From Cladopsammia gracilis (taxonomy: Eukaryota; Cnidaria; Anthozoa; Scleractinia; Dendrophylliidae): a stretch of DNA of 64,000 nucleotides. The DNA is taken from NCBI GenBank assembly GCA_022457155.1, contig JAJGOT010000340.1:615501-679500 (forward strand). The letters run 5' to 3'. The notes below the pieces were generated by a model. That model was given only the letters and a program-made list of their open reading frames with translations. It did not search any database and was not told the DNA's origin. The position numbers were made by a program, and so were the translations under genes. The stretch's first letter is position 1. Each line of letters starts with the position of its first letter. Below are positions 16,784 to 59,261 of this stretch, piece after piece.

Positions 16784-18685
16784 TCATTGATCTTCCTTCT
16801 GTGGTCTGGGACGTGCGACATTCCTCACAAAGCGAACACGATCCGCAAGTCGGTTGTTTTGAAGCGTAACATCATTCGTAAAATCATCTTGCAGCTGAAA
16901 AAAAGAAAACATGTTTACTTTCTATTTACAGTCAAAACCTTTAATTTTGAGACCACAGGAAACACGCTAACTGTTCGCACGGAAAACATGTCCGTATTTT
17001 CCAAACGAAATCTCCAAATAGTTCGTTTTATTAGTCTTAACTTTTTTTCTGAGATGGGTTCAGTGTAGACGGAAAGTACAATCCATTGGCCACCAATATT
17101 AACGTTTTCTCGTATTCTTTGAGAACCTATTAGAGTTTTCCGGCGGTAACGTAAAAAATAACTGTCCTTAATAAAGGGGTGTCGGTATTAGAGGGTGTTC
17201 GTAAAGTGGTTCGACTGTAAATTACCATATCTTACTAAACATTATTTCCTGTTATCCACTGGGCTAATATAAGTTTGGGTGTTTCAGTATTTAAAGCAAA
17301 AGACGAAATCCAATGATATTAATTATCATGTTATTCTCTATAGCAGCAAAACGGTATTCTTTTTCTCGTTGTTGTTGATGATGATGTTTTGTAAGTATAT
17401 AAGTCACACCTCTAGCGGCTCTCTATTAAGCGGTCACTCTCTATTAAGCGGTCACAAATCTCCGGAATTAAATGGCCCCCCATATTTATTGTAAACTTGA
17501 CCGCTTTTAAACGGTCACCTCTATTGATCGGTCAGTTGGCTATTCCCCGGCGAGAGTGACTGCTTAATAGAGGTTTGACTGTATTTTGCGACAGTCAGTC
17601 GTCGGCAGGAGCCGGTGAATTCGAAAATAACTACTAATTCATTCTGATCGCTACAAAGTTGTTAGCATACAGCTGTTTCGAGAAAGGTTGTCGGGAAAAA
17701 GCGCAAAAGTGCACGCGACAATCCCGAAAAATAATATGGGATATGATCAATGAATTTTAATAAGTCAAATAAATACATGAAACCCGCGATGCCTCGTCCG
17801 TACAGGGACGATTTTAGATGGGGGGCCATTGGGATAAATGAGTTTTTAGGATATAGCGTGGATGACTGCCCACAATACCTTTCTGGATTGTCGCGTGCAC
17901 TTTTACGCTTTTTTCCGTCAACCTTTCTCGAAACAGCTGTATGATACGATACTGTTTTAACACGGATAATACCCCCGGGCGGGCGATGTTTTGAAAAAGC
18001 TTTTGTTTTTTAGACCTTTCAAAGATATGGTAAATCTTGCTTAGATTATCATACAATTCTTAACGTCGTTCACCTTTCTTTGTGATTCTAATGAGACACA
18101 ATTATCGTTGCAATGGCTTCTTGTTTTGTCAAAGACTGTGAACTTCTCTTGGGATGCTTGATTCACATTCTAAACTACCGAAATTCTACAAAATTTCAAG
18201 GTTCTAACTTCGGTTCCTGGCGACGTAAACGTGAAGTATAAAGTATAAACGGCTCATATTCGTCGATGTAGAACACACCTTTTCCTGAACGTTTATTTGA
18301 TAAAATAATCGTGGCAACCCTGTTTTAATTCGCTTTATATCAGAATTTCGGTGGCTATGAAACATAAATCGAAGCTTCTAAGTAATCAAGTTTCAACAAT
18401 ATGCTATACACACAAAACTAGCCCTCTACAGGACTTTACACTACTATATTTTGTTATAAAATCGTGGGGATTTACTGAGTGTACTTATCAGGGGTTCCCC
18501 CGGGAGAAAGACAATAACAAATTGTGTTACACTGAGCCGGAAGGCTTTCAGTAGAAATATTACTTTGAACAAACCTCTCTTTTCCCACATTTCCAGTCGA
18601 ATGGGCAATTCCACTGAGCCGAGGCCGTGTAGGAAACTACAAGAATACAGAGAAAAAGAAAGGCGATGACTCTCGGAGAATTCAT
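16784..18685 (-). CDS. Secreted precursor of a predicted cyclic amidated decapeptide, copy A
   Basis: Two exons, read right to left: 18685-18575 and 16894-16784, GT/AG borders, phase 0, 73 residues. Residues 1-23 form a signal peptide with a strongly hydrophobic core (VIAFLFLCILVV) and an Ala-Ser-Ala cleavage site. The mature start is QWNCPFDWKC followed by GKRE. Known processing rules predict Gln to pyroglutamate, a Cys-Cys bridge, cutting after Lys-Arg and use of the Gly as amide donor. Exon 2 codes a charged tail (LQDDFTNDVTLQNNRLADRV, then RFVRNVARPRPQKEDQ). A TATA box lies 105 bases upstream of the ATG, which supports this start. I do not recognise a named family. The layout is that of a neuropeptide or hormone precursor; an antimicrobial or other secreted cysteine peptide is the alternative. 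Gene structure is strongly supported by conservation in B and C; function is inferred. Confidence 0.8.
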
Positions 18686-18789
18686 TCTTGTGATGTTCAA
18701 GTCTTTGGTTCAGTCAGTGCTTCTTGGAACTGTGGCAAGAGAGCTCTTTCAGGCTTGAGTATAACTGAACAACGAATCTAATAGCTCTT

Positions 18790-18797
18790 CTTTTATA
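18790..18797 (-). promoter_or_regulatory. TATA box of precursor gene A
   Basis: TATAAAAG on the minus strand, 105 bases 5' of the ATG. It is conserved in position and flanks (AGCTATTAG, CATGCTATAAAAG) in units A and B, and present in C. It predicts a 5'UTR of about 75 bases. Confidence 0.65.
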
Positions 18798-18799
18798 GC

Positions 18800-21720
18800 A
18801 TGAAGAGCGTGTCATGAATATATAAGGGATCCATTTTGTTGTTCATAGAAGTTGCCATCTGCCTTTGCAAAGCCATACACAGGCTTTGAAAAGTTTCGCA
18901 AACTTTCTCTCTCTTTAGATTGAACGCCCAAACTTTTTTTGTCAAACTTATGCAGGTGCATAGGTGGTGTTCATTATTCCCATTTTTTTAAATTATTAAC
19001 AGGCTTGGTTTGTTTGAACGCCTTCGTCTTCAACTTATTTAAATGAACAAACTGACTTTATTGAATGGGCTTTTTAGGTCTGATATACGCGCGCGTAGGA
19101 TTAAAGCGGGAAGCTATGTGGTTAGGCAAATTTGTGCATTGTGACATTAAGGGCCATTTATACGCAAAAAAATAAGTCCACTTTTATCTAACATGCGTCA
19201 TGTTATCATACAGATAATACAGAATAGCTTTTTAACTTATTTAACTTGTTCTTAAATTTTTTGAAAAAAGCAACTTATTTTTTTTCTCTTGCACAAATGG
19301 CCCTATTATTTTGGTTTTAGTTTGGTGGTTTGTACACATGACGCTATAGAGTTAGTAAATTCCCCCAGGCTGACCTAACATTACTTGAAATTTAATTTTA
19401 TCATCCCACACACACGCTTAAAATGGACGTCCTTCTTATAATTGTATGCCTGAATTAGAATTTATTAACACGACTCGGCGGTGTGTTTTTTTTTTCAGTT
19501 CCTTTCTTGTTTTTGCGTCATCACACACACGCTTTTCCTTAGCCTGGTTTCCACTAGCGACATGAGCATAGGATTAAACTTAAGCATAAGCGGAAGCATG
19601 TGGATTTCCGGCTTCCACTTATGCTTAATATTTCCAAACAACAAAAAGAAACGCAACCTTAACCAGAACTTTGACCTTTTCTTAAATGTTTTATTGGGCA
19701 TTCTATACTGGTGTTCCGAACAATGTCGTTTTCAGAAAAAAAATCTTATAGCGAAAAGAAGCTGTTCTTGTCTGTCACACGATTTTGACTTCAAGTTAAC
19801 AACGTGTGTTTGTTGTTTTTGTGTACAATTCTGTTAAAAAAACATCTGTTATCACACTAAAGCCTTGTTACTACATTATACCAAGCCGTGGGATAATCTG
19901 CATTATATAGCGCTTATCCATGCGTTAATTCATATGGCTTATCAAGTTGTTAACGATATCAATGAGCTGAAAAAAAAAATTTACGTATTGAAGGTTACTT
20001 GTAACAATAGCTGAGGTGACTTTCGGGATATTTTTCGAAAGCGCGATATGTTCGGTATATGTGAAACCCCCCAAATTCATGCGTTATCGTAAGGAATAAA
20101 CCTTTGGTACACCGTTCAACATTCAACAAATGTTGAACAGTGCATCATGCCATTTTGAATGTTGAAATAAGACATTCGACATGTTGAACGTTGTTGAACA
20201 TTGTTGAACGAGAAGAGAGACTTTTCCGTTCAACAAGTTGCAACTTGCAATTTGTTGAACAACGTCAGTCAATCTTTACAAAATGTTGAATATGTTTTCT
20301 ACTCAAGTCATGATATTCGACAAGTTCCAACATCAGCAAATAATGAACGACGTTGAACCGTGCATCATTCGAGACGTCATAATCGAAATATATTAATGTG
20401 TTTTTGAAATAACTTTTGTAGCTTTGGTAAGCGCACACCAACTATACAACCAATGCTTACAGACGTTATCATGGAAATGTATATTATATTTTTCAAACGC
20501 CATTTTGTCGCTTTGGTAAGCGCACACTGACTGTCAAGCTGATTGAATTACTGCTCCTTCGTGTATGTACTGCGTGCAACCAAACATAATGAATTTACCA
20601 CGCATGTTACATTAAGTCCATTACTTGGTAGTGTGAGTGATCAACATATCTTAGTAAGAAGGTAATTAAAATTGTTAATATTGAGTGTAATGAAGTCAAC
20701 CTAACCGCAACTCCCCCTTAATGACACGTCATCTCACTACAACAAGGTGGAGTAATTACTTAAATCCTCACGTCACCTCACTAACACACAGTCGAAAAAC
20801 AACAGAAATCCTGACCGCAGGAGTCTATTATCATTGTAAATTCTTGAATTCAAATAAACAATGTTAAACTCCCAAAAGAATTAAAAGGTGGCCGAACGAG
20901 TTCAACATGATGAGTTTAAATTAAATCAGGATGTTGCCGACTCGTTTTTCATGGTCCTCATTAAACAAAAAGAGCATCCAAAGAGCTGTTAGAAAGATAT
21001 ATGTTATCTCCGAAATGTCCTTAATTATTTCTAATAGCTTTTTAGGCGTTTCTTTTTATCCCATTATGTTTCAAACACGTGGATTTGCTCTCAAGCTGCC
21101 GTATACGTGAATGAAACAGTCGGTATATCTAATCAAAGGGCCCTAAGAGCCATCTCGTAAATACGAAACAACGTAAGGTTAAGTCCACAGATCCGGTTTT
21201 AATTTTCCATACTGAGTTTTAAGTAAAAGAATTAAAGATTAAAACAGATTAAAACGCCCAAAACATCTTGGCGTGACATAAATATGCATTGTGTGAAACG
21301 AGACTGTCTAGACAACTGGATGACGTAATACACTGGGGAATAAAAAAAAAGATTACATCTGAGTGATTAATCGAATGAAAAATTGCATAATTCTCCCGTA
21401 TACTGTATATCGTCATAGCATAAAACTTGCTCTTGGGAAATCATTACCAGATGAATTATTTACCGATGCCAAAGATGGAGGTAAATAATTCATGTACCAC
21501 ATACATAAATAGTGGAATGGATAATTAATACCTAACAAGAACTCTACAAGTAGTAAAACCGTTCTTTAAGGAAGGGCAGACAGAGTGTTCAACATCTTAT
21601 TTCTCCTAGCAATATTAACATGTTGTGAAGCAGATATGCGATGAGAATTAAGAAAATTATCAACTCCAAGATATTATCTTGTTTTAGACTAGCCTCTTTC
21701 TCATTCGGCCAAATTGAGAC
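18800..21720. other. 5' flank of gene A, conserved in unit B
   Basis: No coding exon seen. The flank includes an inverted repeat rich in AGCATAAGC around 19540-19630 and a GTTGAAC/GTTCAAC-rich repeat (20110-20360). Words such as GCTTTGGTAAGCGCACACYRA recur. A block (20540-20860) is almost identical in unit B. The plus-strand frame at 19481-19837 has no family features and its B counterpart is not kept open. Confidence 0.6.
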
Positions 21721-21981
21721 GTGTTAATACCAGTAATAGGCAAAGGTTAGGAAGTGCGGGCGAGGACGATGCATTGAGTTTTGGGTTAAGGCGGGGGTAA
21801 ACATGAATTTGAATGAAATTTGAAGAGGTTTAAAGAAGGGATAGAAGAAAGAAAAGGATTTTTGGAACACCATTGTAATCAGTGACGTATTGAGATTAAT
21901 TCTAAAACAGGGGCGTTATACATTTTGGTGTTGCATATATAGAGTGATTTTACTAAACCTATGAAACAGTTACCTACACTT

Positions 21982-22173
21982 AACAAATCGACCGCATTTT
22001 TCCATGGTCTATACTCTCATCGACCATAGAAATGACGTCATAAAATGTTCAAAACTCAAGTGGAACCACGAGCCGTTAGGCGAGTGGTTTCACTGCTAAG
22101 TTTTGAACATTTTATGGCGTCATTTCTATGGTCGATGAGAGTATAGACCATGGAAAAATGCGGTCGATTTGTT
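21982..22173. mobile_element. Inverted-repeat element
   Basis: Arms AACAAATCGACCGCATTTTT and ATGGTCTATACTCTCATCGA pair with their complements on the right (22105-22173) around a loop near 22060-22090. Confidence 0.8.
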
Positions 22174-22442
22174 TTTTACAATAACAAACTTGAATAACTG
22201 CGAGCGCCGAGCGAACTAGTTTAGAAAATCAAGATAAACAACCTAACACTGACAAACTGCTGCAAAATGTTTTTTGCGTGGGGAATAATTAAAGCCTTAA
22301 CTTTTTATGTGAATAAATTATGTAACGAAAAAGGCTCACACAAAAATTCTCTTCAGCTTAAATCATCGCTAGAATCTTTTAATATAAATTTTAACACAGC
22401 AAAACAAAGAGCCGTTACTGTCGGCAAATTTTAGAGAACCGC

Positions 22443-22844
22443 CACTGGACGAAAAAATGGATTTACTCAAGTTTGCACATTGAGCAAATATGTAGCAAAT
22501 TTGGGCCTCTAAATTTGAACCAAATTTGCACTTGGTGTAAAGTGAATGTAAACATACATCTTTGCTCACGTGCAAATTGTGTGCAAATGTGGTGTAAATA
22601 TGCATCTGCGCAAAAATTTACTATATCTTTGCTACCCCAAGCAAATTTCATATTTGCTCATCTTTGCCATGCCAAGCAAACATTAAGAAAATGTGGAATT
22701 TACCAGCTTTGCTTTCTTTGCAAATAAAGTGCAAACATCAAGTTTTGATTTGCTGCAAAGATGAGCAAAGTTGTGCAAATGTCATCTTTACTACATGTTT
22801 ACTACTGTTTTGCCACCCATGTAAATCCATTTTTTCGTCCAGTG
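22443..22844. mobile_element. 402-bp inverted-end element filled with GCAAA/TTTGC words
   Basis: Ends CACTGGACGAAAAAATGGAT and ATCCATTTTTTCGTCCAGTG are exact complements. The inside is unusually rich in TTTGC, GCAAAT and TGCACA words on both strands. No transposase frame. Confidence 0.8.
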
Positions 22845-23984
22845 CGCGCTCGGCGATAATCGCAAAATAGAGCACAATAACCTCACACAAAGTCAAATAT
22901 AAAATTACTTGGCACAGTTTACAAAGCTAACCTTTTTCAAATTTGAAATATCTTCGAATAATCAGATGAATCTTTGCTCCAAGTTGTTTTCGGCTCAGTT
23001 TTAGTTCTTTCGGGCGCCGGCGACTGATTCCGTGGATTTTCCCGTGAAACTACGACAAGTTGTTTGTCCTTTTTGCTTCGCACTTAATTCCAGGCAAGTT
23101 TAGCTGATTGTAAACTAAATTTAGCTGACGAGAGAGCATTCTTTTCATTGAAGAATTCCAGTTTTAAGTGCATTTTTCACTGTTTGAAGAACCCGCAGCG
23201 CCAAAAGTTTGACAAAACTTACCTGTTACGTCATTTTCATGGTCTATACTCTCATCGACCATAGAAATGAGCCAATCAGCGCGCGGGAATTCACACAGTT
23301 ATTGTAAAATATAACATACACTATAACATTCCATGAGACACTAGTTCCATTGTTTTGTTTTGTTTAGTTATAAATTGTTTCTTGTTGTTTCACGGTGTAA
23401 ATAAAATCACTCTAGGTTATAAATTGTGGTATTGATTGAGTCAAAGTTGTTAAATTATTTTAGAAACTCGTTTTAATTTTTTTACATTAATGAACTAAGA
23501 AATATGTTTTATTGTTTTATTTTATTTTATCTGTCGGTGTGATATTCGCTCCAGTCCCTTACAGAGCGAGTATAAATAACAGCCGTGCATCTAATTTCGG
23601 CCCAGTTCAAGTAAGAATCCTTTGGTGCTGTTACCTTCGTGTTCTCACCATGTCCGGCGAGCAAGCTCCCGTGGCGGAGGTAGTTCCAGATAGTTCAAGC
23701 GCTTCTTCAGTCAGCTCAAGCGCCTAAACCAGGCCCAGCTAACCAAAACCCTTACTGGTAAAATTTTCTTTAGTATTTGTCCGGCTTTTTCAGCCGTTTT
23801 GTCGCTTGTTCCCCCGCGGCTCCACGTGCTCGCCGGTTTTTTATCTCCTCACCTTGCTCCTTGTCCCTTATCCGTTCGCCACGTTTCTTTCTATAGTTTT
23901 TCGCTTCCCTACAGCTTATATGGAATTTCCACGCTTTTATATTTGGTTGTTGAGCTATTTATAGCTTTGCGTGCTTCGCTACAC

Positions 23985-24770: not shown

Positions 24771-25069
24771 AGTTCCGTTAAAGTTTGTACGTTGGTTTTT
24801 ATTACCCTGGGTCTGCTTGGTTCCTGTATTATTTTTATGTTTTAAATTTTGCAGATTCGCTATTTTTCATGTCATTGGCATCCAATTGTTTCCTTTTCTA
24901 TAAGTATTGTTGCCAGTTCTACCCAGTTAAGCACTCTTTTATTGTGCGTTCCGCCTTTATTATTGGAATTTTATGGTTCGCGTGTTTATCTTGGTGTTTA
25001 ACTCGAAGTTTACATGCTTCGGATAGTTATCCGTATTCCTTTCCGTTTACTCATTATTTCCCTGTCATT

Positions 25070-25930: not shown

Positions 25931-25955
25931 AGATGTTTTCTGCCACGCGTATTGA

Positions 25956-26138
25956 ACAGATTGCGAACTCTACTTTACAGGATTACAGTCCCGCCTCCGT
26001 TACTACCTGCAAGACGCTCAAATTTACGAGGGTAAAACTCTGCACAGCTTTAGAGCCGGGGTGGCCATTATTTTAGCCTTCACTCTAGACGCTATGGCTC
26101 ATTTTGGTTGGTGCCATGTATGTTCCCCTATAACGTGA
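25956..26138 (+). pseudogene. Tyrosine recombinase C-terminal fragment (DIRS/Ngaro type)
   Basis: About 60 residues read in one frame, including YYLQDAQIYEGKTLHSFRAG and VAIILAFTLDAMAHFGW. LHSFR carries the HxxR catalytic box of tyrosine recombinases and HFGW matches the following conserved block. The frame ends at TGA 26136-26138 before a catalytic tyrosine, so the enzyme is dead. Confidence 0.65.
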
Positions 26139-35593: not shown

Positions 35594-36013
35594 GACTTGT
35601 CTCCCCCCGGGGAATTGTATCCCCCCTCTCATCCTCAGTTGTGGTCGTGAAATTTCCCTCAGATTTTATTTCCCCTCGACGGAACGCCTGTTAATAAGCT
35701 ACTTTATCCTGGTTAACCTTTTGACACAGAAGCGTTTTAAGATATTTATATTTTTACATCTTCAAGTGAATATAGGAGTAATTTGATAGAGAAACTAAGG
35801 TACTGCTCAGTGGGTTGCCCACTGTAAAGAGATTCAAGCGGACGTTTCGAGCGTCAGCCATTAGTTCGAGTAAATTCGCGTTGGCAAAGGTCTAAAGTTC
35901 AAAATATCAGCTTGTGAATTTATTCAAACTGTCCGTAAAGCCTGCCAGTTTGCTAACACAAAATATCTGTTTTTACAAAAGGTTGCAAGCCCCATTTAAA
36001 AGAGTACGAAAGT

Positions 36014-39000
36014 ATGGCCGCTTCAACGGAATATAGCAGAGAACAGTTGAACTATCTCAGGATTTGTTATGTTACTACAGACATACTAACCGAGGGTCTG
36101 CGTTTTCTTTTCAAACGAGAATGGGATAACCGTTACATGACTACACATGGAGAATGGAAGGATGAACATCGCAATGGATTGGACTTTTATAATGGAGAGT
36201 CCCCGCGCAACCAAAGGCGAAACGCTTATCTCCTGGCGACCATGAAAAACGGTAATAGAGCCGAATGGGACTGTACCATGCTGTTTTACGCCATCCTTTA
36301 CTCTGATTCTATCGGACACGGTCTCAACGCAGGAATCAAGACTAATGTAGACGATCTAAGAAAATTCAGGAACGAAGAATTTGCTCACATGCCACGAGGC
36401 TATCTTACAGATCCAGACTTTCAAAATGCCACCAGTAAAGTTCATGGTGCATTTCAAGCTCTCGGTCTCTCCACTGTAGGAATCCAAGACGTCAAGAATC
36501 AGACAAGTTTTCCCACGGATGAGTTAAGAGTCATTCTAAAGAAGGTTGATTATCTTAAACAGCAACTCCAGGTCCTTGAAGATCAGCTAGAAAAAGATGT
36601 CTCCTCGTTTTGTATTCTCCCTCCTAAACCTTCACATAATGTCTCAGGTCGTGATCGTGAGGTAGCTGAAATAATACAGCAGCTGAAAGAGCTAAAAGAA
36701 GCAAATGAAAACGGCCTAAGTTACCTGTACATTTCCGGAAATCCTGGAAGTGGCAAATCACAGTTAGCTGGCCACGTAGCCAAGCGGTTCTTCGATGCAG
36801 CAAAAGAAGTTCCATGCGCCACTCCATGTGTGATGACATTAAATGCCGCAAGTCCTGATTCCCTTTTGGAGTCGTATGTTCTCTTCGCTCGACAACTAAG
36901 ATGTCCGGAATATGCAGTAACAAACACCCTGAACTCCAAGGATTTCAAGACAGAAGAGAAGATCACCAATTTGAAAACGCTAATTGCCACAAAAATCAAG
37001 TTTCACACCACGTGGCTTCTGGTGGTTGACAATGTCATTAGCATGTCTCGTGTGCATGTTTATCTGCCTGAACGTGGAAACGAACAGTGGTCAAAGGGCC
37101 AGCTATTGATTACAACACAGGACGCCACGTCCATCCCGTTAACAAGCTGCTTTGTTAACCACGTCTCGGTAAGCGAAGGTATGAAGCCCGATGATGCCTG
37201 TTCTTTATTATCCTTGATTTCTGGCATCGACAGCGAGATGGAGAAAGAAATTGCACAGACATTGGACTATCAGCCTCTTGCCTTAGCAAGCGCCGCCACC
37301 TATGTCAAACAGGTTCGGCAAACTAAAGCGACTTCAAACTTCGACTGGGTCGACTACCTAGAGAAGCTACAAAAAGGACTCCGAAGCACTACTGAAACCA
37401 TTCTTTCCGAAACCAATCCTAGTTACCCTAAATCCATGACCGCAGCAATAACTCTTGCCGTTGAAAATGTGATGATATCGGACAAAGTTATAGATCACAC
37501 ATTCACTTTTCTTTCTGTCTGTGCACCACAACCATTAAGTCTGGATATCGTGGTCAATTACATTCTAAACGTAAATGAAGAAATAAAGGATAAAGAGTTA
37601 ATTAGCGCGAGAATCAAAAGATGTTCACTGCTGTTATGCGAAGAAGGCGAGAGTGACATCTTTATACGTGTTCATCAGGTTGTGCATAATGCCATCAAAA
37701 CTGTAATGAATGACCACCTGGAGAGACAACATCTGATTGAAGCCATTAATGCGGCTATGATATCATGCACCCAGTTCAATGACACCATTCCAGCAGACAA
37801 TTGGCACTTGGATACCTTACACATTGTCCCACATTTAAAAACCTTAATTTTTAGCACTGAATATCTGTTTTCGAACGAAAGCATACCTCAAGTTGTCAAC
37901 CAAAGTATGTCAGAATACTTTTATGCAGATACATTTGGAAAGCTCGGCGACATTTGTATTGAGCACTGTGAGTTTTATTTAGCAAAGAAATATCATGAAA
38001 ATTCACTAGCCATTGAATTGGAAAATTGTGGGCCAGAACATGTTAACGTTGCAGCGTGTTATGGACACTTGGGTTCTATTCACCAGGACCTAGGAGACCT
38101 TGAGCGTGCCAAGGAGTATCAAGACCGCGCTCTCGCCATTCACCTAAAGACGCTCGGCCCAGATCATATTCATGTTGCAACGTCTTATAGAAACTTGGGT
38201 TCTATTCACAAGGCCTTAGGAGACCTTGCATGTGCCAAGGAGTATCAAGATCGTGCTCTTGCCATTGAACTAAAGACGCTCGGTTCTGATCATATTATTG
38301 TTGCAACGTCGTATGAACACTTGGGTTCTATTCACCAGGCCTTAGGAAACCTTGAGCGTGCCAAGGAGTATCAAGATCGTGCTCTCGCCATTAGAGTAAA
38401 GAAGCTCGGCCCAGATCATATTCATGTTGCAACGTCTTATGAACACTTGGGTTCTATTCACCAGGACTTAGGAGACCTTGAGCGTGCCAAGGAGTATCAA
38501 GATCGTGCTCTCGCCATTAGAGTAAAGAAGCTCGGTCCTGATCATATTAATGTTGCAACTTCTTATAAAAACTTGGGTTCTATTCACGGGGCCTTAGGAG
38601 ACCTTCAGCGTTCCAAGAAATATCACGATCGTGGTCTCGCCATTGAACTAGAGAAGCTCGGCACAGATCATATCGATGTTGCAACGTCTTATGAAAACTT
38701 GGGTTCTATTCACCAGGACTTAGGAGACCTTGAGCGTGCCAAGGAGTATCAAGATCGTGCTCTCGCCATTAGAGTGAAGAAGTTTGGCCCAGATCATATT
38801 CATGTTGCAACGTCTTATAGAAACTTGGGTTCTATTCACCAGGCCTTAGGAGACCTTGAGCGTGCCAAGGAGTATCAAGATCGTGCTCTCGCCATTAGAG
38901 TAAAGAAGCTCGGTCCACATCACATTCATGTTGCAACGTCTTATGAACACTTGGCTTCTATTCACCAGGCCTTAGGAGACCTTGAGCGTGCCAAGGATTA

Positions 39001-39721
39001 TCAAGATCGTGTTCTCGCCATTGACCTAAAGACGCTCGGCCCTGATCATATTAATGTTGCAACGTCTTATGAACACTTGGGTTCTATTCACCAGGCCTTA
39101 GGAGACCTTAAGTGTGCCAAGGAGTATCAAGCTCGTGCTCTCGCCATTAGAGTAAAGACGCTCGGCACAGATCATATTCATGTTGCAACGTCTTATAGAA
39201 ACTTGGGTTCTATTCACCAGGATTTAGGAGACCTTGAGCGTGCCAAAGAGTATCAAGATCGTGCTCTCGCCATTAGAGTAAAGAAGCTCGGCCCAGATCA
39301 TATTCATGTTGCAACGTCCTATGAACACTTGGGTTCTATTCACCAGGCTTTAGGAGACCTTGAGCGTGCCAAGGAGTATCAAGATCGTGCTCTCGCCATT
39401 AGAGTAAAGAAGCTCGGCCCAGATCATATTCATGTTGCAACGTGTTATGAACACTTGGGTTCTATTCACCAGGACTTAGGAGACCTTGAGTGTGCCAAGG
39501 AGTATCAAGATCGTGCTCTCGCCATTAGAGTAGAGAAGCTCGGCCCCGACCATATTAATGTTGCAACATGTTATAGTAACTTGGGTTATATTCACGAACA
39601 ATTAGGTGACCTTGAGTTGGGCAGGGAGTATCATGAACGTTCTCAAGCTATTCATCTGAAAAAGCAAGTGTCTCAGTATGTTGACGTCAGAATTGCCCAC
39701 GATAACCTGAGTACTACATAA
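36014..39721 (+). CDS. HEPN/NB-ARC/TPR protein (NLR-like STAND ATPase), intronless
   Basis: A 1235-residue single-exon gene. Residues about 10-165 form a DZIP3-type HEPN domain; R119-NEEFA-H125 matches the RX4-6H motif that is catalytic in HEPN ribonucleases. An NB-ARC/NACHT-type ATPase follows: P-loop GNPGSGKS (242-249), Walker B LLVVDN (335-340), GQLLITTQD (362-370), and YQPLAL (419-424), equivalent to the GLPL motif. Residues 638-1225 are 14 tandem 42-residue TPRs of the kinesin-light-chain type, each close to SYEHLGSIHQALGDLERAKE, YQDRALAIRVKKLGPDHIHV. Such proteins are expanded in corals and anemones and are thought to act as oligomerising sensors, the TPRs taking the role LRRs have in vertebrate NLRs. 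The ATG (AGTATGG) has a good context, and no earlier in-frame start was seen. Ligand and effector function are unknown; RNA cleavage is inference from the HEPN motif. Confidence 0.9.
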   Translation: MAASTEYSREQLNYLRICYVTTDILTEGLRFLFKREWDNRYMTTHGEWKDEHRNGLDFYNGESPRNQRRNAYLLATMKNGNRAEWDCTMLFYAILYSDSIGHGLNAGIKTNVDDLRKFRNEEFAHMPRGYLTDPDFQNATSKVHGAFQALGLSTVGIQDVKNQTSFPTDELRVILKKVDYLKQQLQVLEDQLEKDVSSFCILPPKPSHNVSGRDREVAEIIQQLKELKEANENGLSYLYISGNPGSGKSQLAGHVAKRFFDAAKEVPCATPCVMTLNAASPDSLLESYVLFARQLRCPEYAVTNTLNSKDFKTEEKITNLKTLIATKIKFHTTWLLVVDNVISMSRVHVYLPERGNEQWSKGQLLITTQDATSIPLTSCFVNHVSVSEGMKPDDACSLLSLISGIDSEMEKEIAQTLDYQPLALASAATYVKQVRQTKATSNFDWVDYLEKLQKGLRSTTETILSETNPSYPKSMTAAITLAVENVMISDKVIDHTFTFLSVCAPQPLSLDIVVNYILNVNEEIKDKELISARIKRCSLLLCEEGESDIFIRVHQVVHNAIKTVMNDHLERQHLIEAINAAMISCTQFNDTIPADNWHLDTLHIVPHLKTLIFSTEYLFSNESIPQVVNQSMSEYFYADTFGKLGDICIEHCEFYLAKKYHENSLAIELENCGPEHVNVAACYGHLGSIHQDLGDLERAKEYQDRALAIHLKTLGPDHIHVATSYRNLGSIHKALGDLACAKEYQDRALAIELKTLGSDHIIVATSYEHLGSIHQALGNLERAKEYQDRALAIRVKKLGPDHIHVATSYEHLGSIHQDLGDLERAKEYQDRALAIRVKKLGPDHINVATSYKNLGSIHGALGDLQRSKKYHDRGLAIELEKLGTDHIDVATSYENLGSIHQDLGDLERAKEYQDRALAIRVKKFGPDHIHVATSYRNLGSIHQALGDLERAKEYQDRALAIRVKKLGPHHIHVATSYEHLASIHQALGDLERAKDYQDRVLAIDLKTLGPDHINVATSYEHLGSIHQALGDLKCAKEYQARALAIRVKTLGTDHIHVATSYRNLGSIHQDLGDLERAKEYQDRALAIRVKKLGPDHIHVATSYEHLGSIHQALGDLERAKEYQDRALAIRVKKLGPDHIHVATCYEHLGSIHQDLGDLECAKEYQDRALAIRVEKLGPDHINVATCYSNLGYIHEQLGDLELGREYHERSQAIHLKKQVSQYVDVRIAHDNLSTT
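37925..39688 (+). repeat. 126-bp tandem TPR-coding repeats, 14 units
   Basis: Units 2-13 are nearly identical in DNA, for example CGTGCCAAGGAGTATCAAGA and CATGTTGCAACGTCTTATGA recur almost unchanged. The first and last units are diverged caps. This points to recent unit gain or gene conversion. Confidence 0.92.
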
Positions 39722-48463: not shown

Positions 48464-48469
48464 AATCTT

Positions 48470-50011: not shown

Positions 50012-53000
50012 TCATTGATCTTCCTTCTGCGGTCTGGGACGTGCGACATTCCTTACAAAGCGAACACGATCCGCAAGTCGGTTGTTTTGAAGCGTAACAT
50101 CATTCGTAAAATCATCTTGCAGCTGAAAAAAAGAAAACATGTTTACTTTCTATTTACAATCAAAATCCTTTAATAGACAAATTCGGCTAACGCACTGTTG
50201 TACCCAATTCAAACCTTCTGGGTATAACATCCTTTGTTCACAATATTTCCATATAATTTCCATGTCAATGCTTCATTGATATGGAAATATGACGAACAAA
50301 AAGTTCTAATCCCAAAAGGTTTGAATTGGGTACAACAATGCGTTAGGGCCTGGTCGCATTACAATCAAAAACAAAAATTAGCCCATGCAAAAATCGAGGA
50401 AAACAAAAGAAACCGCCCCCTGGGACACGCTTTTTGTGGAATGTTTTTGTTTTTATGTCATTTTGCAAAGGTTAATTTTTGTTTTTGACTGTAGTGCGAC
50501 GAAGGCCTTAGCCGAATTTGTCTACAGGACACAGCAGGAATCACGCAAACACTTCGCACGGAAAACCTGCCTGTATTTTTCAAACGTACGTCCCAAATTA
50601 CACGTTTTATTAGTCTTAACTTCTTTATTTCTGAGACGGGTTCAGTGTAGACGGGAAGTACAGTCCATTGGCCACCAATATTAACGGTTTCTCGTATTAT
50701 TTGAGTTTATTTTTTAGGACATATCAGAGTTTTCCGGCGGCAACGAAAAAATAACTGTCCTCAATAAAGGAATGTCTGTATGATAGCGGAGCACTTGCCA
50801 GGCCGAAGGCCTGGCTGCGCAGCCCCATACCCATAGAACCAGAACCTGTGCCCGTCATTTTTCATGGTCATGGCTAGCGGAATGTTTCGCGGGCGCGCGT
50901 GTGCCCTCCGTCCGCCGTCGCACCAATCTCGTACCCAGACTCCTCAGGCTTCTTGGTCAGACCAAGAAGCCTGAGGACTCTGGGTACGAGATTGCCGTCG
51001 CACAGGACCGGACTACTGTACTACTGTAGCTCCGCCGTCGCGCAGGACTAGCTCGCGGGCGCGTATGACGTCGCAAAACATGCGCGTACGACGTCATGTT
51101 GAAACCAAAGCGAGGCTTTGTTTTTCGCGCGGTTACACGGCCGAATGTTACGTCAGCTAGAAAAACACTTTGATGTTTTGCTGTGAATTTACTAAGCGGA
51201 GAAAACCGTTTAAATTAAAGGCGTTATTTTCCTGAATATTTCGCGGTTTGCTACTCAAGACAAGGGTACTAATTAAAGGACATGAGCTATAATTAAATGG
51301 TACGCGTTTTGCTTTTAAACGTAAACTAATGGAGATTTGAATAAATTTTTTCGAAAGAAGATTGTGTTGTACATTTTTATGTGTTTGTTCATTCATTAGA
51401 TAGATTGAAAAGCGATTTTATGTAAACAAAACATGACTTTGATTTTATAGTACAGTTCTATCTTCACTCGCATCGCCTTATGCAAATATGTTTGTGTATT
51501 TTTGCAATTTTTGATTTTCAAATCAGTTTCTCGGGCAATTTTTGACAAACAAAAACTGTATTTTATTCGGAAACTAGTGGTACTAGTTATTCTAGACAGA
51601 GAAAAGTTGTTTTTGTGAACTTTTGTACGGTCTATAAAAATGTACTGTGCAGACGGTCGCATAATACTGTTTTTGAGAATTGTTAAAATTGAACAATCTT
51701 AATTCTTGTGCTTAAAAACCTTTCACCTTAGTTAAGTTTCACCTTAATTAAGCTTTTTCAAAGTGCGACGCTGTTAGGCTTGGGCTATCTATATATATTA
51801 GGGTGTCCGTAAAAAGGTTTGACTCTAATTTACCATATCTTACTAAACGTGATACAATGTCATATCTGCCGAGTTGGTAAACAAGCTGTTTTATGTAACA
51901 AATTAATGACTATTTGGAAACAAATTATATAAGTTTGGGTGTTTCAGGCTTTAAAGTAAAAAACGAAATCCAGTGATATTAATTATCATGTTATTCTCTA
52001 TAGCAGCAAAACGGTATTCTTTTTCTCGTTGTTGTTGTTGATGATGTTCTGTAAGTATATAAGTCACACCTCTAGCGGCTCTCTATTAAGCGGTCACTCT
52101 CTATTAAGCGGTCACTTAACAAATCTCCGGAATTAAATGGCTCCCCATATTTACTATAAATCCGACCTCTTTTAAGCGGTCACCTCTATTTAGCGGTCAG
52201 TTGGCTATTCCCTGAGATTGACCGCTTAATGGAGTGTTTTCACATGACGTCACGGCGGTCATGTTGGTGTCCCAAAACGATAAAACGGCAGCATATTGGT
52301 GTCCCAAGCTAATCCTGTGGGATTAAACTCTTTTCTAATGCAAACTTTTTGTTTTGTTCAAATAAATCAGCATAGCTGCAGACCACGTGATTGAAAACAC
52401 TCTATAGAGGTTTGACTGTATTTTGACAGTCAGTTGCCGGTGAATTCAAAAATAATTACTAATTGTTTCTAATCGCTACAAAGTTGTTAGCATACTATAC
52501 TGTTTTAACACGGATAATACTCCAGGCGATGTCTCGAGAAAGCTTTTCTTTTTTTATACCATTCAAAGAAATATGGTCAATCTTGCTTAGATTATCATAA
52601 GATTCTTATTGTCTTGCACCTTTCTTTGTGATTCTTTTGAGACCCAGTTACCGTTGTAATGGCTTCTTGTTTTGTCAAAGACTGTAAACTTTTCTTGGGA
52701 CGCTTGCTTCGCATTGGCCCATTTCACACTAGAAGACGGACAAATCGTCTGGACGGACAAGTCGTCCGACGATTTGTTCGTGTAATGTGAATTCTAGACG
52801 GACAACTCACCTTGTGTTGGTCATCGTAAATTCATACCTGAACGAAGAAACAGACGATTTTGAAAGCAAGGGGCCTGGCACTAACAGGCTTGGTTACCTT
52901 GCTTTCTATCCGCCATTTTTCTTTTCCCATAAACCATCACTCCCTTTACTGGTTCCATTCCCTTTAGCGAGTGCTGTGACCGAGATACAACCATTTGTTC

Positions 53001-53742
53001 GTCTGGTGTGAATTTAAGTCGGACTTTGGACGACTTATTCGTCTTGACGAACAAATCGTCCACGAAAACCGTCTTAACAGACGGCCAAATCGACGGACAA
53101 AATCAGACGACTTTTACGTCCAAAATTTTGTTCGTCCCTTTTTCTCACTAAGACGACTTGTCCGTCTGAGACGACTTGTCTGTCCAGACGATTTGTCCGT
53201 CTCTAGTGGGAAAACGGCCATTCTGAACTACCAAAATTACACAAAATTTCAAGGTTCTAACTTCGGTTCCTGGCGACGCAAAAAGTGAAGTGTAAAGTAT
53301 AAACGGCTCATATTCGTCGATGTAGAAAACACCTTTTCCTGAACATTTAATTTATTTGATAAAATAATCGTGGCAACCATGTTTTCGCTTTATATCAGAA
53401 TTTCGGTGGCTATGAAACTTAAATCGAAGCTTCTAAGTAATCAAGTTTCAACAATATGCTATACTCGCAAAACTAGCCCTCTATAGAAGTTTACACTACT
53501 ATTTTTTTTTATAAAATCGTGGAGATTTACTGTGAGTGTAATATTAGGGGTTCCCCTGGAAGAAAGACAATGCAAATTGTCAGTTACACTGAGCCGAAAG
53601 GCTTTCAGTAGAAATGTTACTTTGAACAAACCTCTCTTTTCCCACATTTCCAGTCGAATGGGCAATTCCACTGAGCCGAGACCGTGCAGGAAACTACAAG
53701 AATACAGAGAAAAAGGAAAGCCACGACTCTCGGAGAATTCAT
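50012..53742 (-). CDS. Secreted precursor of a predicted cyclic amidated decapeptide, copy B
   Basis: Exons 53742-53632 and 50122-50012, same borders and phase as copy A, 73 residues. The tail exon and the mature decapeptide QWNCPFDWKC plus GKRE are identical in sequence to copy A. Changes are confined to the signal peptide (Val for Ile at residue 7; Cys-Thr-Val near the cleavage site instead of Tyr-Thr-Ala). The intron is about 3.5 kb because four mobile elements landed in it, against 1.7 kb in A. Splice sites, stop codon, TATA box and poly(A) signal are all intact, so the gene appears functional despite the load. Role as in copy A: a neuropeptide or hormone precursor, by inference. Confidence 0.8.
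50176..50522. mobile_element. TA-flanked fold-back element, interrupted
   Basis: TA | GACAAATTCGGCTAACGCAC ... CCGAATTTGTC | TA. GTTGTACCCAATTCAAACCT is exactly inverted in the right arm. Unit A has the corresponding empty region near 16935-16960. Its right arm is split by the insertion at 50346-50507. Confidence 0.85.
50346..50507. mobile_element. Second MITE nested in the arm of the first
   Basis: TTA(G) flanks both sides (50343 and 50508). Ends GGCCTGGTCGCATTACAATC and GGCCTTCGTCGCACTACAGT (complement), continuing CAAAAACAAAAATTA. Removing it with one TTAG restores GCGTTAGCCGAATTTGTC, the exact complement of the outer left arm. A 3-base TTA target fits PIF/Harbinger. Confidence 0.85.
50923..50993. 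mobile_element. 71-bp fold-back with 9-bp target duplication
   Basis: GCCGTCGCA (50914-50922 and 50994-51002) flanks a hairpin whose arms AATCTCGTACCCAGACTCCT and CAGGCTTCTTGGTC pair with one mismatch and almost no loop. It looks like two terminal repeats of a larger Mutator-like element joined with the middle lost. Confidence 0.75.
52230..52406. mobile_element. MITE inserted in intron of gene B only
   Basis: Ends GGAGTGTTTTCACATGACGT and the complement of AGAGTGTTTTCAATCACGTG. Unit A reads straight through (GCTTAATAGAGGTTTGACTG at about 17562). It is related to 32379-32570. Confidence 0.8.
52716..53219. mobile_element. 504-bp element with 3-bp target duplication, intron of gene B
   Basis: ATT (52713-52715) | GGCCCATTTCACACTAG ... 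CTAGTGGGAAAACGGCC | ATT (53220-53222). Unit A has the empty site with a single ATT at 18167-18169. The inside carries many copies of GACGGACAAGTCGTC-like words in both orientations. The 3-base duplication and GGCC-type ends suggest PIF/Harbinger. Confidence 0.85.
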
Positions 53743-53845
53743 TCTTGTGATGTTTAGGTATTTGGTTCAGTCAGTGCTTCGTGGAACTGTGCAAGAGAGT
53801 TCTCTCAGGCTTGAGTGTAAGTGAACAACGAAGCTAATAGCTCTC

Positions 53846-53853
53846 TTTTTATA
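53846..53853 (-). promoter_or_regulatory. TATA box of precursor gene B
   Basis: TATAAAAA on the minus strand, about 104 bases 5' of the ATG at 53742, matching A and C. Confidence 0.65.
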
Positions 53854-53869
53854 GCATGAAGAGCATGTC

Positions 53870-56800
53870 ATGAATAAGGGATCCATTTTCGGTTGTTCAT
53901 AGAAGATGACATCTGCCTTTGTAAAGCCAAACACAGCCTTTGAAAAGTTACGCCAACTTCTCTATCAACCTTTTTTTTGTCAAACTCATGCAGGTGCATA
54001 GGTGGTATTCATTATTCCCAGTTTTTTTAAATTATTAACAGGCTTGGTTTGTTTGAACGCCTTCGTCTTCAACGTATTTAATTGAACAAACTGACTTTAT
54101 TGCATGGGCTTTTCATATCTGATATACGCGCGCGTAGGATTAAAAAGGGAAATTTTTGCATTGTGACATTAAGGGCCCCACTTATACGCGAAAAAGTAAA
54201 CTTTTATCTAACACGCGTCAAGTTATCATACAGATGATACAGGATTGCTTTTATGCTTATTTAAATTGTTCTTACATTTTTTGAAAAAAGCAACTTATTT
54301 TCTCTTGTACAAGGACTGTTATTTTCGTTTTAATCTGGTTGTTTGTACACATGACGCTGTAGAGTTAGTAAATTCCCCCAGGCTGACCTAACGTTATTTT
54401 AAATTTAATTTGATTACCCCACAAACACGCTTAAAATGGAAGTCCTTCTTATAATTGTATGCCTGAATTAGAATTAACACGACTCGGCGGTGTGTTATAT
54501 TTTTCCTTTTTTGTTTTTGCGTCATCGTGCACACATCCGCTTTTCCTAAGCCTGGTTTCCACTATCGACAAAAGCACAGGCTTAAGCATAAACATAAGCG
54601 GGAGCATATTAGAATTTGGATGCTTCCACTTATGTTTAATATTTCCAAACAACGAAAAGAAACGCAGCCATGCATAACCAGAACTTTGACCTTTTCTTTA
54701 CTTAACTTTAAATGTTTTATCGCGCATTCTCTACTGATGTTCCGAATAATGTTGTTTTCAAAGAAAAAAAATCTTACAGCGAAAAGAAGCTGTTCTTGTC
54801 TAGCACACGATTTTGACTACAAGTTAACAACGCGTGTTTGTTGTTTTTGTGTAAAATTCTGTTAAAAAACCCCATCTGTTATCACTATAAAGCCTTCAAT
54901 TGTTACTATATTATACTAAGCCGTGTGATAATCTGCATTATATAGCGCTTGCCATGCGTCAATTCACGTGTTTTATTGATTTGTTAATGAAGTGAATGAG
55001 CTGAACCAAAATTTAAGAAACATATTCAAGGTTACTTGTAACAATAGCAGGTGACTTTCGGGATATTTTTCGAAAGCGCAACATTCTCGAGAAACCTCCC
55101 AAAATCATGCATTATCGTAAGACATAAGCCTATTGTGCACGGCTCAACATTGAACCAAAGTTGAACAGTGTATCATGCCATTGTAAATGTTGAAATAGGC
55201 CATTCGATATGTTGAACCTTGTTAAAGGACTTTATTCCGTTACAAGTTCCAACTTGTTGAGCGACGTTAGTTAATCTTTTCAAAATGTTGAATGTGTTTT
55301 CAACTCATTAAATTTAACAAGTTGAAACATCAGTAACTGTTGAACGATGTTGAACCGTGGTGCATCATTCGCTTTAGAGACTTCATAATCGAAATATATT
55401 AATTTGTTTTTTAAATAACTTTTGTAGCTTTGGTAAGCGCACACCAACAATCCAACCAAGGCTTACAGACGTTATCATGGAAATATATTTTATTTTTGAA
55501 ACGAATTTTGTCGCTTTGGTAAGCGCATACTAAGAATAAAACCAACGCTTAAAAACTTTATAATCGAAATAATTTTGTCGCTTTGGTAAGCGCACACCGA
55601 CTATCAAGCTGATTGAATTACTGCTCCTTCGTGTATGTACTGCGTGGAACCAAACATAATGAATTTACCACGCATGTTATATGAAGTCCATTACTTGGTA
55701 ATGTGAGTGATCAACATATATTAGTAAGAAGATAATTAAAATTGTTAATATTGAGTGTAATGAAGTCAACCTAATCGCAACTCCCCCTTAATGACACGTC
55801 ATCTCACTACAACAAGGTGGAGTAATTACTTAAATCCTCACGTCATCACACTAACACACAGCCGAAAAATTACTGAAATCCTGACCGCAGGAGTCTATTA
55901 TCATTGTAAATTCTTGAATTCAAATAAACAATGTCAAACTTCCAAAAGAATTAAAAGGTGACCGAACGAGTTCAACATGATGAGTTTAAATAGAATCACG
56001 ATGTTGCCGACTCGTTTTAAACAAAAAGAGCACTCAAAGAGTTGTTAGAAAGACAGATGTTATCTCCGAAATTTCCTTAATTATTTCTAATAGCTTTTTA
56101 GGCGTTTCTTTTTATCCCATTATGTTTGAAACACGTGGATTTGCTCTCAAGCTGCCGTGAATGAAACAGTCGGTATATCTAATCAAAGTGCTCCAAGAGT
56201 CATCTCGTGAATGAAACAGTCGGTATATCTAATCAAAGTGCTCGAAGAGCCATCTCGTGAATACGAAACAACGTAAGGTTAAGTCCACAGATCGGTTTTA
56301 ATTTTCCATACTGAGTTTGAAGTCAAACTTATTTGGTAATTCCCTATGATTGATAACTGTCAAACTCCCTCAACTGTTGAGTTGACAGATCAAAAAATTA
56401 TATTAAAAGAATGTTTTCAATCCTCAAAATCAGTTTCTTTTCATTTAATTTTGCTAGCGCAACTCCGTTCTGCTACAGAAACACTTGAAAATACTATATT
56501 TTGAATGTCCCGCCAAAGGGTCATGTGACCTAATTCAACCAATCAGAGTGCTCAAAAGTGGTCAAAACGCCTAATTTTGAATGTCCATATCTTCTGAACG
56601 ATTTAAGATAATGACCCGAAATTTTGGATTTTGAAATTGGACATCAGGATGCTTACTGAGACATTTTTGGGAGATATTCTGAGACGGCAAATATACCCTG
56701 GGCAGGTACCTTAAAACAGATTAAAAACGACCAAAACATCTTGGCGTGACATAAATATGCATTGTGTGAAACGAGACTGTCCACACAACTAAATGACTGG

Positions 56801-57190
56801 GGAATTAAAAAAAGATTACATCTGAGTGATTAATCGAATTATAATGAAAAATTGCATAATTCTCCCGTATACTGTATATCGTCATAGCATAAAACTTGCT
56901 CTTGGGAAATCATTACCAGATGAATTATTTACCGATGCCAAAGATGGAGGTAAATGATTCATCTACCACATATATAAATAGTGGAAAGGATAATTAATAC
57001 CTAACAAGAACTCTACAAGTAGTAAAACCGTTCTATAAGGAAGAGCAGACAGAGTGATCAACATCTTATTTCTCCTAGCAATATTAACAAGTTGTGAAGC
57101 AGATATGTGATGAGAATTAAGAAAATTATCAACTCGAAGATATTATCTTGTTTTACACTACCCTGTTTTTCATTCAGCCAAACTGAAACA
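53870..57190. other. 5' flank of gene B
   Basis: Closely matches 18800-21720. No coding exon seen. A copy-specific block at about 56325-56715 is absent from A. Confidence 0.6.
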
Positions 57191-57769
57191 TCAGAAGTCA
57201 TTGTTTTTTTAATTCCATCCCCCGTTTTTGACTAACCTCTTTTTCATTCAGCCAAACGACGTCTTTAACAAACACAGATTGATCCCTGAATCATGGAAGG
57301 CGTTGTTTTCCGAATTCCTTCCCCCGTTATGATCAGGCTAGCCATTAAAACGCAGGCCGCCAATTTGAATATCCCCTGGATCACAGTACGACTTTGTCTC
57401 ATGCATTGACTCTTGCCAAACGATATTTACAACAACTCATTAGAAACATGCCAGTCTATCCACCACCTTATTAATACACTAATGAAACCTCTTTTCTTAC
57501 AATCGTATCTCCTTTTAACAAATACTTCAAAACACTTAAAGCCACAACTTTGTAGAAACATCTAACACAATAAATATGCCACTAATATCTGTCTGAACGC
57601 TTAAGCACACTTAGCCTGACTTGCGTCGATTTTCCCTAAGTCTACTTAACGCAGACATACTGTCTAGTGTGAGCCCACTACGCTTATCGTCGAATTCTCG
57701 CTCTGGAAATTGGTGCGGTTTAATGACAATAGTGCAAGAAAACAAGTCACTGCAATATAAATATGATAA

Positions 57770-57775
57770 TTTATT
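57770..57775 (-). terminator. Poly(A) signal, precursor gene C
   Basis: AATAAA on the minus strand, same place as in A and B. Confidence 0.65.
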
Positions 57776-57955
57776 TACCAAGCTTTTTAAACAAATAACA
57801 AGAGAAAAAAATCAATATGTTATATAAATATAGATATGTCACTTTCTTTCTTATAAATCTATGTTAATATATTCATTTCTTTATTATAAATTATATTTAA
57901 TTTGTTTAACACTTCGATCTCCCAATTCTTCCCATGAGTGCTCAGTTTTCCTCTT

Positions 57956-59261
57956 TTATTCGTCTTCCTTTTGTGGCCTGGGTCGAGAGTTCCTCAGAAA
58001 GCGAAGACGATCCGCAAGTCGGTTGTTTTGAAGCGTAACATCATTCGTCAAATCATCTTTGAGCTGAGAAAAATGAAAACAGAATTAATTTTCTATTTAC
58101 AGTCAAATGAAACTCCCGTAATATGGACACCGCAGGAACCACGAAAACTGTCCGTACGGAAAATACCCGTCCTAAAAAGGTATCCGAAAGCCTAGACTAT
58201 TAATTGTACGTTTTATTTAGGTTAATATTTTAGATGGCATTGGTCTGGAGGGTAACTAGGTGTACTGTCCGTTGTCCGCCATTATTAACGGATTCTCGTA
58301 TTAATTGGGCTAACTTTAGAGAAATATAAGTAAAACAATTTACACGGTGTTTCATGCAGTCTTAATTGTCTTGACCCATTTTGTCGTCGCTACCAAAAAC
58401 GAAAACCGAATTAATCGTCATGTTCGGTTACCTATACGGCAACAAAAATGTAAAATTGTAAAAGTTTTGTCGTTGTCTTAATTGTTATTGTTATTTTGTT
58501 GTTTATGATGTTGTTCTGTTAGGGTATGTTTTGACAATCACTCGCCGGTGAATACTAAAAAAAGTACTAGTTATATCCTGACTGATTGCCTTAAATTAAC
58601 TATGAATGTTAGCATGCTCTTTTTCCTAGCCATATAGAATAACACCTTGGGCGATATTTTTTATTAATTTGTAATAAGACAAAATATTCGTTCTTTGAAA
58701 ATATTGTTTTTTCGCAAAATGTAAATCAAGAAGTGGTATTTGTTTATCCAACTGATGCCTGATCAGGCTATATTTTCTTCTTGTTTGTCAAAGACCGTAA
58801 TTTTCTATTGCTTGTTTTTTTCTTTCACATTCCAAACTACCGAAATTCTACCTATCGTCAAGGTTTTACTTCTGTTCCTAGCGACGTAATAGTGTAAGTA
58901 TATATGAATGCTGTAGTACACAATAAGCGTAAATTATTTATATCACCATTCTGATGGCCATAGAAGTTCACCGTTCAAAAAAATGTTTTATACACATACC
59001 TCCTTAGAACTTTTCACGGCCACCCTTTTTTAGAAAATCGTGAAGATTTACTAACACTGCATATTAGCCGGGCTCCCCAGGGAGATAGATAATAATAATA
59101 ATAATAAGTTATATATGTTATACTCAAAAGGCTTTCAATGTTGAACAAACCTCTCTTTTCCCACACCTCCAGTCGTATGGGCAAGTCCATTGAGCTAAGG
59201 TCGTGTAGGAAACTACAACAATACAGAGAGAAAGGAAAGCTACGACTCTCGGATAATTCAT
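57956..59261 (-). CDS. Secreted precursor of a predicted cyclic amidated decapeptide, copy C
   Basis: Exons 59261-59151 and 58063-57956, 72 residues. Signal peptide ends Thr-Leu-Ala. Mature QWTCPYDWRC is followed by GKRE. Against A and B the peptide differs only by Asn to Thr, Phe to Tyr and Lys to Arg, while both Cys, both Trp, Gln1, Pro, Asp and GKR are kept. The tail (LKDDLTNDVTLQNNRLADRL, then RFLRNSRPRPQKEDE) is one residue shorter and carries Phe or Val to Leu changes. This pattern suggests selection on the peptide and on the tail. Intron about 1.1 kb, the shortest of the three. It is the oldest split of the family present here. Confidence 0.8.

Follow-up and report, generated by a model that had tools for sequence, protein, structure and literature searches.

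Among Hexacorallia, preprohormones in which one pyroglutamate-led, amidated peptide (pQ...amide) stands directly behind the signal peptide are well established, each species having several such genes (PMC7523074; papers are cited here by PubMed Central number, for the passages drawn upon). The three single-copy LRWamides of Nematostella cross-activate four G-protein-coupled receptors (GPCRs), and most GPCRs in such animals are still orphan (PMC11087051). Cyclic neuropeptides have been predicted in some medusozoans, the cyclic FRamides not having been found in Staurozoa or Octocorallia by the 2019 paper (passages of PMC6909153 and PMC8638164), and none for Hexacorallia was met in the passages used from PMC7523074, PMC9525235, PMC6756747, PMC6909153 and PMC8638164. 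Here, we analysed a window of 64,000 nucleotides from the scleractinian Cladopsammia gracilis (contig JAJGOT010000340.1 of assembly GCA_022457155.1, here C985, 932,893 bases long; bases 615,501-679,500), in which a first-pass annotation had proposed three genes for a putative cyclic, amidated decapeptide. We consider it probable that the precursors of these genes, named A, B and C, give rise to cyclic amides that are secreted and serve as neuropeptides or local hormones, and that they stem from a locally duplicating single-copy prepropeptide family. This function, like the active use of the genes claimed in the annotation, we infer from the sequence features described below.

The annotation had placed three two-exon genes on the minus strand, and its coordinates proved exact, with GT...AG introns in each case (Table 1). 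Reading the exons directly and splicing them in scripts gave precursors of 73, 73 and 72 amino acids for A, B and C, which share one layout: a hydrophobic, signal-type leader of 23 residues is followed by a Gln-led peptide of 10 residues with two Cys, by G-K-R-E at the edge of exon 1, by a phase-0 intron and by a charged tail of 36, 36 and 35 residues without Cys, encoded in exon 2. Five residues stand between the two Cys (C-X5-C). As annotated, the decapeptide is the same in A and B and changed in C, and every copy has its own TATA box (TATAAAA) and poly(A) signal, the AATAAA starting 71-343 nt past the stop. The intron of gene B (50123-53631) is enlarged by repeats, with an inverted repeat near 50970 visible by eye.

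A pattern of Met, 17-28 residues, Q, C-X5-C, G and a basic pair, whose matches were counted by a script without being listed, occurred 7 times in a 293,501-base stretch (C985:596000-889500), compared to 0 in each of 60 first-order Markov simulations, while the peptide part of the pattern alone gave 7 matches against a simulated mean of 0.07 and a maximum of 2. Genes A-C are thus not a product of chance. Between A and C, nucleotide identity amounts to 86.5% and 88.0% in the two exons, but to 53.6% in the aligned intron, 59.6% upstream and 75.9% downstream. With processing-site codons left out, A and C differ by 13 synonymous changes at 45.8 sites and by 15 nonsynonymous changes at 161.2 sites (Fisher p = 0.0024, rounded counts), and the A-C coding sequence is under purifying selection. 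The mature peptide codons of A and B are identical; their tails differ by 2 synonymous changes and their signals by 2.5 synonymous and 3.5 nonsynonymous changes. Pooled over non-independent pairs, the ratio of nonsynonymous to synonymous substitution rates (dN/dS) in A, B and C was 0.65 for the signal, 0.16 for the mature peptide and 0.17 for the tail, and the peptide encoded in the window is constrained given its value of 0.16. Including a fourth gene (D, see below) changed these ratios to 0.55, 0.26 and 0.21, respectively. The dN/dS comparison across the three copies, which the annotation had suggested as a check, hence turned out in favour of constraint.

The first-pass annotation spoke of a three-gene family, a count that falls short: 12 related exon-1 genes lie within 234 kb of the contig, and both exons are present in 11. 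The exon 1 of gene D, 187 kb beyond the window, came up in a search with precursor A, and further members were found when A, C and D served as queries of a local tblastn over C985:596000-889500. From this set, 8 exon-1 and 7 exon-2 sequences were used to build profiles by hand. In the same stretch, the exon-1 profile gave 12 matches at E <= 2.1e-15 (remainder E >= 0.15) and the exon-2 profile 12 matches at E <= 4e-8 (remainder E >= 1.6); members of the profile set match by construction, and B, F1, F3 and F4 are the exon-1 matches from outside it. One exon 2 is an orphan, and for gene D no match to the exon-2 profile was found in the 23 kb downstream. We divide the genes into group 1 (A, B, C and D) and group 2 (E1-4 and F1-4). 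When the whole 878-Mb assembly was searched, C985 accounted for all 7 matches of query A at E <= 0.001 and for all 17 of query F2 at E <= 10. With a composite query for group 2, 23 matches reached E <= 10; 18 of these fell on C985, and the 5 from elsewhere had E >= 0.5. As the clear members in the genome all lie on C985, we take the family to be one cluster, within the sensitivity of an exon-by-exon search; outside C985:596000-889500 the counts rest on exon-wise protein search, by which very diverged copies may be missed.

All 12 genes have one two-Cys peptide behind a hydrophobic leader (leader and cut site judged by eye), and in all of them G and then KR or RKR follow the last Cys. Gln stands at the predicted cut in 11 of the 12, and the 11 complete genes each have a predicted splice site, in frame and of phase 0, just behind the basic residues. 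A TATA box is located 83-112 nt before the ATG in 11/12 genes (at -562 in D), and AATAAA is present within 600 nt past the stop in 9 of the 11 complete genes, E3 and F4 being the exceptions. Three ring types can be distinguished, namely C-P-[FY]-D-[WY]-x-C in four genes (among them the three of the window), C-x-[FY]-N-x-x-C in four and C-X7-C in four, so that the ring is C-X5-C in 8/12 and C-X7-C in 4/12. The predicted mature peptides have 10-14 residues and would all end in Cys-amide. In gene D (L008:3700-4420), ~0.45 kb of unrelated DNA lies between the conserved promoter and first part of the leader on one side and the ATG on the other, which may reflect an insertion or an intron gained in the leader.

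Table 1 Genes of the peptide family and their parts. Positions with the prefix C985 refer to the contig, all others to the window.
Feature	Position	Strand	Description
Gene A	C985:634185	-	QWNCPFDWKC
Gene A exon 1	18575..18685	-	leader MNSPRVIAFLFLCILVVSYTASA, QWNCPFDWKC, GKR, E; exon-1 profile E 2.6e-23 (A among the profile-building sequences)
Gene A predicted mature peptide and GKR site	18578..18616	-	pGlu-W-N-C-P-F-D-W-K-C-amide with disulfide; predicted protonated mass (MH+) 1306.513, computed with pyroglutamate (pGlu), amide and disulfide assumed
Gene A intron	16895..18574	-	1680 nt, phase 0, GTTTGT...TTTCAG
Gene A exon 2	16784..16894	-	conserved tail LQDDFTNDVTLQNNRLADRVRFVRNVARPRPQKEDQ and stop
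Gene A TATA box (TATAAAA)	18791..18797	-	starts 112 nt before ATG
Gene B	C985:669242	-	QWNCPFDWKC
Gene B exon 1	53632..53742	-	predicted mature peptide as in A; profile E 2.3e-22 (B outside the profile set)
Gene B intron	50123..53631	-	3509 nt; repeat insertions with copies elsewhere on the contig
Gene B exon 2	50012..50122	-	tail protein identical to that of A
Gene B TATA box	53847..53853	-	111 nt before ATG
Gene C	C985:674761	-	QWTCPYDWRC
Gene C exon 1	59151..59261	-	leader, QWTCPYDWRC, GKR, E; predicted MH+ 1337.519; profile E 6.5e-22 (C in the profile set)
Gene C intron	58064..59150	-	1087 nt
Gene C exon 2	57956..58063	-	tail LKDDLTNDVTLQNNRLADRLRFLRNSRPRPQKEDE and stop
Gene C TATA box	59357..59363	-	102 nt before ATG
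Gene E1	C985:748645	-	QPEYGCPYNPLC
Gene E2	C985:760383	-	QYECSFNYQC
Gene E3	C985:802734	-	QYPCTFNYSC
Orphan exon 2, without exon 1	C985:809736	-	exon-2 profile
Gene F1	C985:812541	-	QSPWECAHKYTPPC, same as F2
Gene F2	C985:838677	-	QSPWECAHKYTPPC, same as F1
Gene F3	C985:843015	+	QSPWECAYKYTPAC
Gene E4	C985:847175	+	IFECSFNYSC
Gene F4	C985:857078	-	QSPWECALKYYPAC
Gene D	C985:866298	+	QSWNCPFDYSC; predicted MH+ 1329.466; without recognisable exon 2

The same splice position and phase, the similar tail and the TATA spacing support a common descent of the two groups. Their tails share a pattern like RL-x-D-R-L-x-x-L-R-x-S-R-P-R-P, and a profile of the group-2 tail scored 29.6 bits on the tail of C, a value matched by none of 4,778 scored shuffles, and 11.3 bits on the tail of A, matched by 2 of 4,633 (5,000 shuffles each). 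Profile-profile comparison of group 1 with group 2 gave a probability of 98.5% (E = 1.6e-15), a score that is inflated because the leader was included. A nucleotide tree set group 1 apart from E and F with an ultrafast bootstrap of 100; the branching order inside group 1 has support of 60-76, and that inside E and F of 70-95.

How the precursors might be processed can be outlined from established processing rules. Signal peptidase would free an N-terminal Gln that turns into pyroglutamate, the two Cys would close a ring of seven residues, prohormone convertase would cut at KR, and peptidylglycine monooxygenase would use the Gly to amidate the Cys that closes the ring. The tail, which would be removed, probably helps the precursor to fold or to be sorted; for gene A, single-sequence AlphaFold2 predicts its tail as one helix (residues 2-26, mean predicted local distance difference test score 79.6, predicted TM-score 0.43), and a folding or sorting segment would be its presumable role. 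Released from secretory cells, most likely neural or neurosecretory ones, the ring peptide would act on GPCRs, and paralogues with C-x-[FY]-N-x-x-C and C-X7-C rings may yield related ligands that share some of their receptors, as is the case for the LRWamides of Nematostella. Secreted cyclic amides acting on GPCRs appear most likely because of the precedent set by the hexacoral pQ...amide peptides and these LRWamides.

Several observations weigh against this proposal. Peptidomics of Nematostella allowed disulfides and had disulfide-bridged peptides among its uncertain identifications, yet no such family is named in the passages drawn upon (PMC11087051). Not all members fit the scheme, as Ile replaces Gln in E4, D is without a recognisable exon 2 and the tail of E2 is short. 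The A-C tail is as constrained as the ring, so it could be functional itself. In group E, pooled dN/dS reached 1.37 for the mature peptide compared to 0.18 for the signal and 0.75 for the tail, all from small numbers, and a ring varying more than the signal is also a pattern of venom peptides. Diversifying selection is suggested by this pooled ratio, but the four contrasts tested within group E are weak (p = 0.016, 0.21, 0.65 and 0.07), and it is not established. The corresponding ratios in group F were 0.51 for the mature peptide, 0.32 for the signal and 0.50 for the tail.

The main rival, although we regard it as unlikely, is that some genes of the cluster have a venom- or gland-type use. 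The cyclic amides would then be kept in nematocytes or gland cells for use against prey, predators or competitors, with a ring diversifying by duplication. A cluster of 12 genes with three ring types on one scaffold would suit such a use as would the group E ratios, and ring size, the Pro after the first Cys and an amidated last Cys are common to the contryphans of cone snails (PMC5100318). However, the group-1 ring is constrained, with or without D, and hexacoral neuropeptide precursors are built with a single short peptide straight behind the signal (PMC7523074). A weak point in the same direction is that the main text of a cnidarian toxin review is without the terms 'single disulfide', 'one disulfide', 'amidated', 'propeptide', 'decapeptide' and 'pyroglutam' (PMC7600780). 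Considerably less probable still are gamete, larval or colony signals released into sea water, for which the ring variants would provide species- or stage-specific cues. In Clytia and in coral planulae, neurosecretory cells are marked by short, taxon-restricted secreted proteins that have conserved Cys (PMC12225738), and single-copy genes, divergent rings and blocked ends would be suitable for such signals, but no sequence feature points to expression in gonads, gametes or larvae. Antimicrobial peptides of mucus or epithelium would likewise be small, of secreted type, duplicated and probably closed by a disulfide. Such peptides are usually cationic. We rejected this role, to which we give very little credit, because all 12 predicted mature peptides carry an approximate net charge of 0 or -1. 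Least credible of all are decayed or non-expressed duplicates without any active peptide, as might be read from gene D, the orphan exon 2 and the early end of the E2 tail, since 11/12 genes have frames open over both exons with GT and AG joins, the exons are conserved relative to the introns and A and C are under significant constraint.

If secreted cyclic amides acting on GPCRs are indeed what the cluster encodes, a further step can be proposed, albeit tentatively and with doubts outweighing our confidence: one precursor scaffold may have radiated within the 234-kb cluster into three amidated ring chemotypes with GPCR sets of their own, as an independent counterpart of the cyclic hormones of bilaterians that was overlooked because surveys seek repeated peptides. 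The hexacoral screen asked for at least 3 cleavage sites and three similar peptides, besides BLAST and known motifs (PMC7523074), and the Nematostella screen for repetitive sites, besides BLAST and mass spectrometry (PMC11087051). Single-copy families would therefore tend to be missed by repeat-based screens and enter mainly via homology, known motifs or mass spectrometry. pQGRFamide, in turn, is reported as ubiquitous in Hexacorallia (PMC7523074), and a repeat query of Antho-RFamide type (QGRFG units) gave five matches in the present genome, 75-95% identical, in one open frame of 369 residues (C927:2397368-2397769), as would suit an anthozoan; a sixth match elsewhere is weak and stop-rich. 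An anthozoan cluster of 12 genes would add a peptide family with exactly predicted masses and tests ready at hand, and its three ring types on one scaffold would form a natural series for ligand diversification after gene duplication.

Other features of the region are described for completeness. Between A and B, an open frame of 1254 residues (window 35957-39718, plus strand) has NPHP3-like TPR repeats and weak AAA/NB-ARC matches and resembles a TPR-NLR-like gene. A minisatellite at 2764-3866 is open in several frames on both strands, and its long repetitive frames, CYSNQLT repeats included, are probably not genes. The long frames at 62710-63822 (minus strand) and 63086-63793 (plus strand), the two window pieces scanned against Pfam, gave no match there; they overlap a plus-strand frame of 502 residues that leaves the window (C985:678246-679751) and is possibly a mobile-element gene. 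Located 16 kb beyond gene C is a piece of a rhodopsin-family GPCR (L012:1002-1751, minus strand; C985:690502-691251; 7tm_1 E = 3.8e-21). We claim no link to it as a receptor of the family, as the PDB entries closest to it are adenosine and amine receptors. Dense long frames occur in L013, L014, L020, L021 and L022:5878-9495; L022, which was scanned, has type-B DNA polymerase and endonuclease VII-like domains, as in large virus-like DNA transposons.

The annotation could match the peptide to no family it could name, and this held in our searches. Pfam and NCBIfam returned nothing above cut-off for the spliced precursors A and C, the two that were scanned, a Pfam 'Frizzled' match of gene C (E = 0.15) being below its cut-off. 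Five PDB matches of A (glucanases at E = 0.21-0.81, lectins at E = 0.25 and 1.2) were discarded as not credible relatives, and an Rfam scan of the window gave no match at gathering scores. The ring strings CPFDWKC, CPYDWRC, CPFDYSC, CSFNYQC, CTFNYSC and CSFNYSC appear in none of the full texts searched, and the family may stand unnamed in supplementary precursor lists. The hexacoral survey uses neither cyclic nor cysteine nor disulfide in its main text, and cystine once, about vasopressin (PMC7523074); by word counts, all four terms are absent from the consulted text of PMC9525235 and PMC6756747. The passages used from a cone-snail 'toxin-based' paper hold nothing on the family (PMC10501145).

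Among described systems, the comparison with vasopressin, urotensin and somatostatin drawn in the first-pass annotation is not the closest one, since cyclic FRamides, crustacean cardioactive peptide (CCAP) and the contryphan ring are nearer in layout. Membership in the vasopressin, CCAP, cyclic FRamide, contryphan or Antho-RWamide families was rejected in each case, at least one tested feature being at variance. Vasopressin and oxytocin, like the peptides predicted here, are cyclic, amidated and encoded right after the signal, and have a tail outside the ring and a neurophysin domain. No sign of the latter was found, as the tails of A, B and C are free of Cys and no Pfam match above cut-off exists for A and C. 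Their ring is closed between Cys1 and Cys6 (PMC9545775), whereas the present family has no six-residue ring and its last Cys is C-terminal. The likeness to contryphans comprises five residues between two Cys, mostly Pro or Hyp after the first Cys, often an aromatic residue next and an amidated last Cys (PMC5100318). In contrast, contryphans are mollusc venom peptides whose main motif has Pro-Trp ahead of the last Cys; they contain a D-residue and hydroxyproline, and no pyroglutamate is noted in the passages used (PMC5100318). By sequence, a seven-residue ring with C-Pro/Hyp is present in group 1 (4/4) and in E1, the amide being predicted, while the remaining 7/12 differ in the Pro or in ring size, and Pro-Trp before the last Cys occurs in 0/12. 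Convergence is the simplest reading of this likeness, with no evidence pointing to homology. CCAP resembles our predicted peptides in being a two-Cys, C-terminally amidated peptide with one copy per precursor, but it is a nonapeptide set between precursor-related peptides, two upstream and two downstream (PMC4655400), whereas 10-14 residues stand straight after the leader here. The medusozoan cyclic FRamides (Scyphozoa, Cubozoa) and GPPCRWGCamide of Clytia are likewise cnidarian, amidated and predicted to form a disulfide ring, and in the Clytia peptide, too, an amidated Cys comes last; cyclic FRamides, however, have six-residue rings with WFR outside and several peptides per precursor (PMC6909153, PMC8638164), features seen in none of our genes. 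Compared by description, Antho-RWamides (LRWamides) end in RWamide and their examples are without Cys, unlike the 12 predicted Cys-amides (PMC7523074, PMC11087051). What the family appears to share with these hexacoral peptides is the precursor plan: one peptide directly after the signal, mostly led by pyroglutamate, amidated and present as several paralogues per species (PMC7523074, PMC11087051), with a Gly-basic site in 12/12 genes (leader by eye) and an N-terminus that would be blocked via Gln in 11/12.

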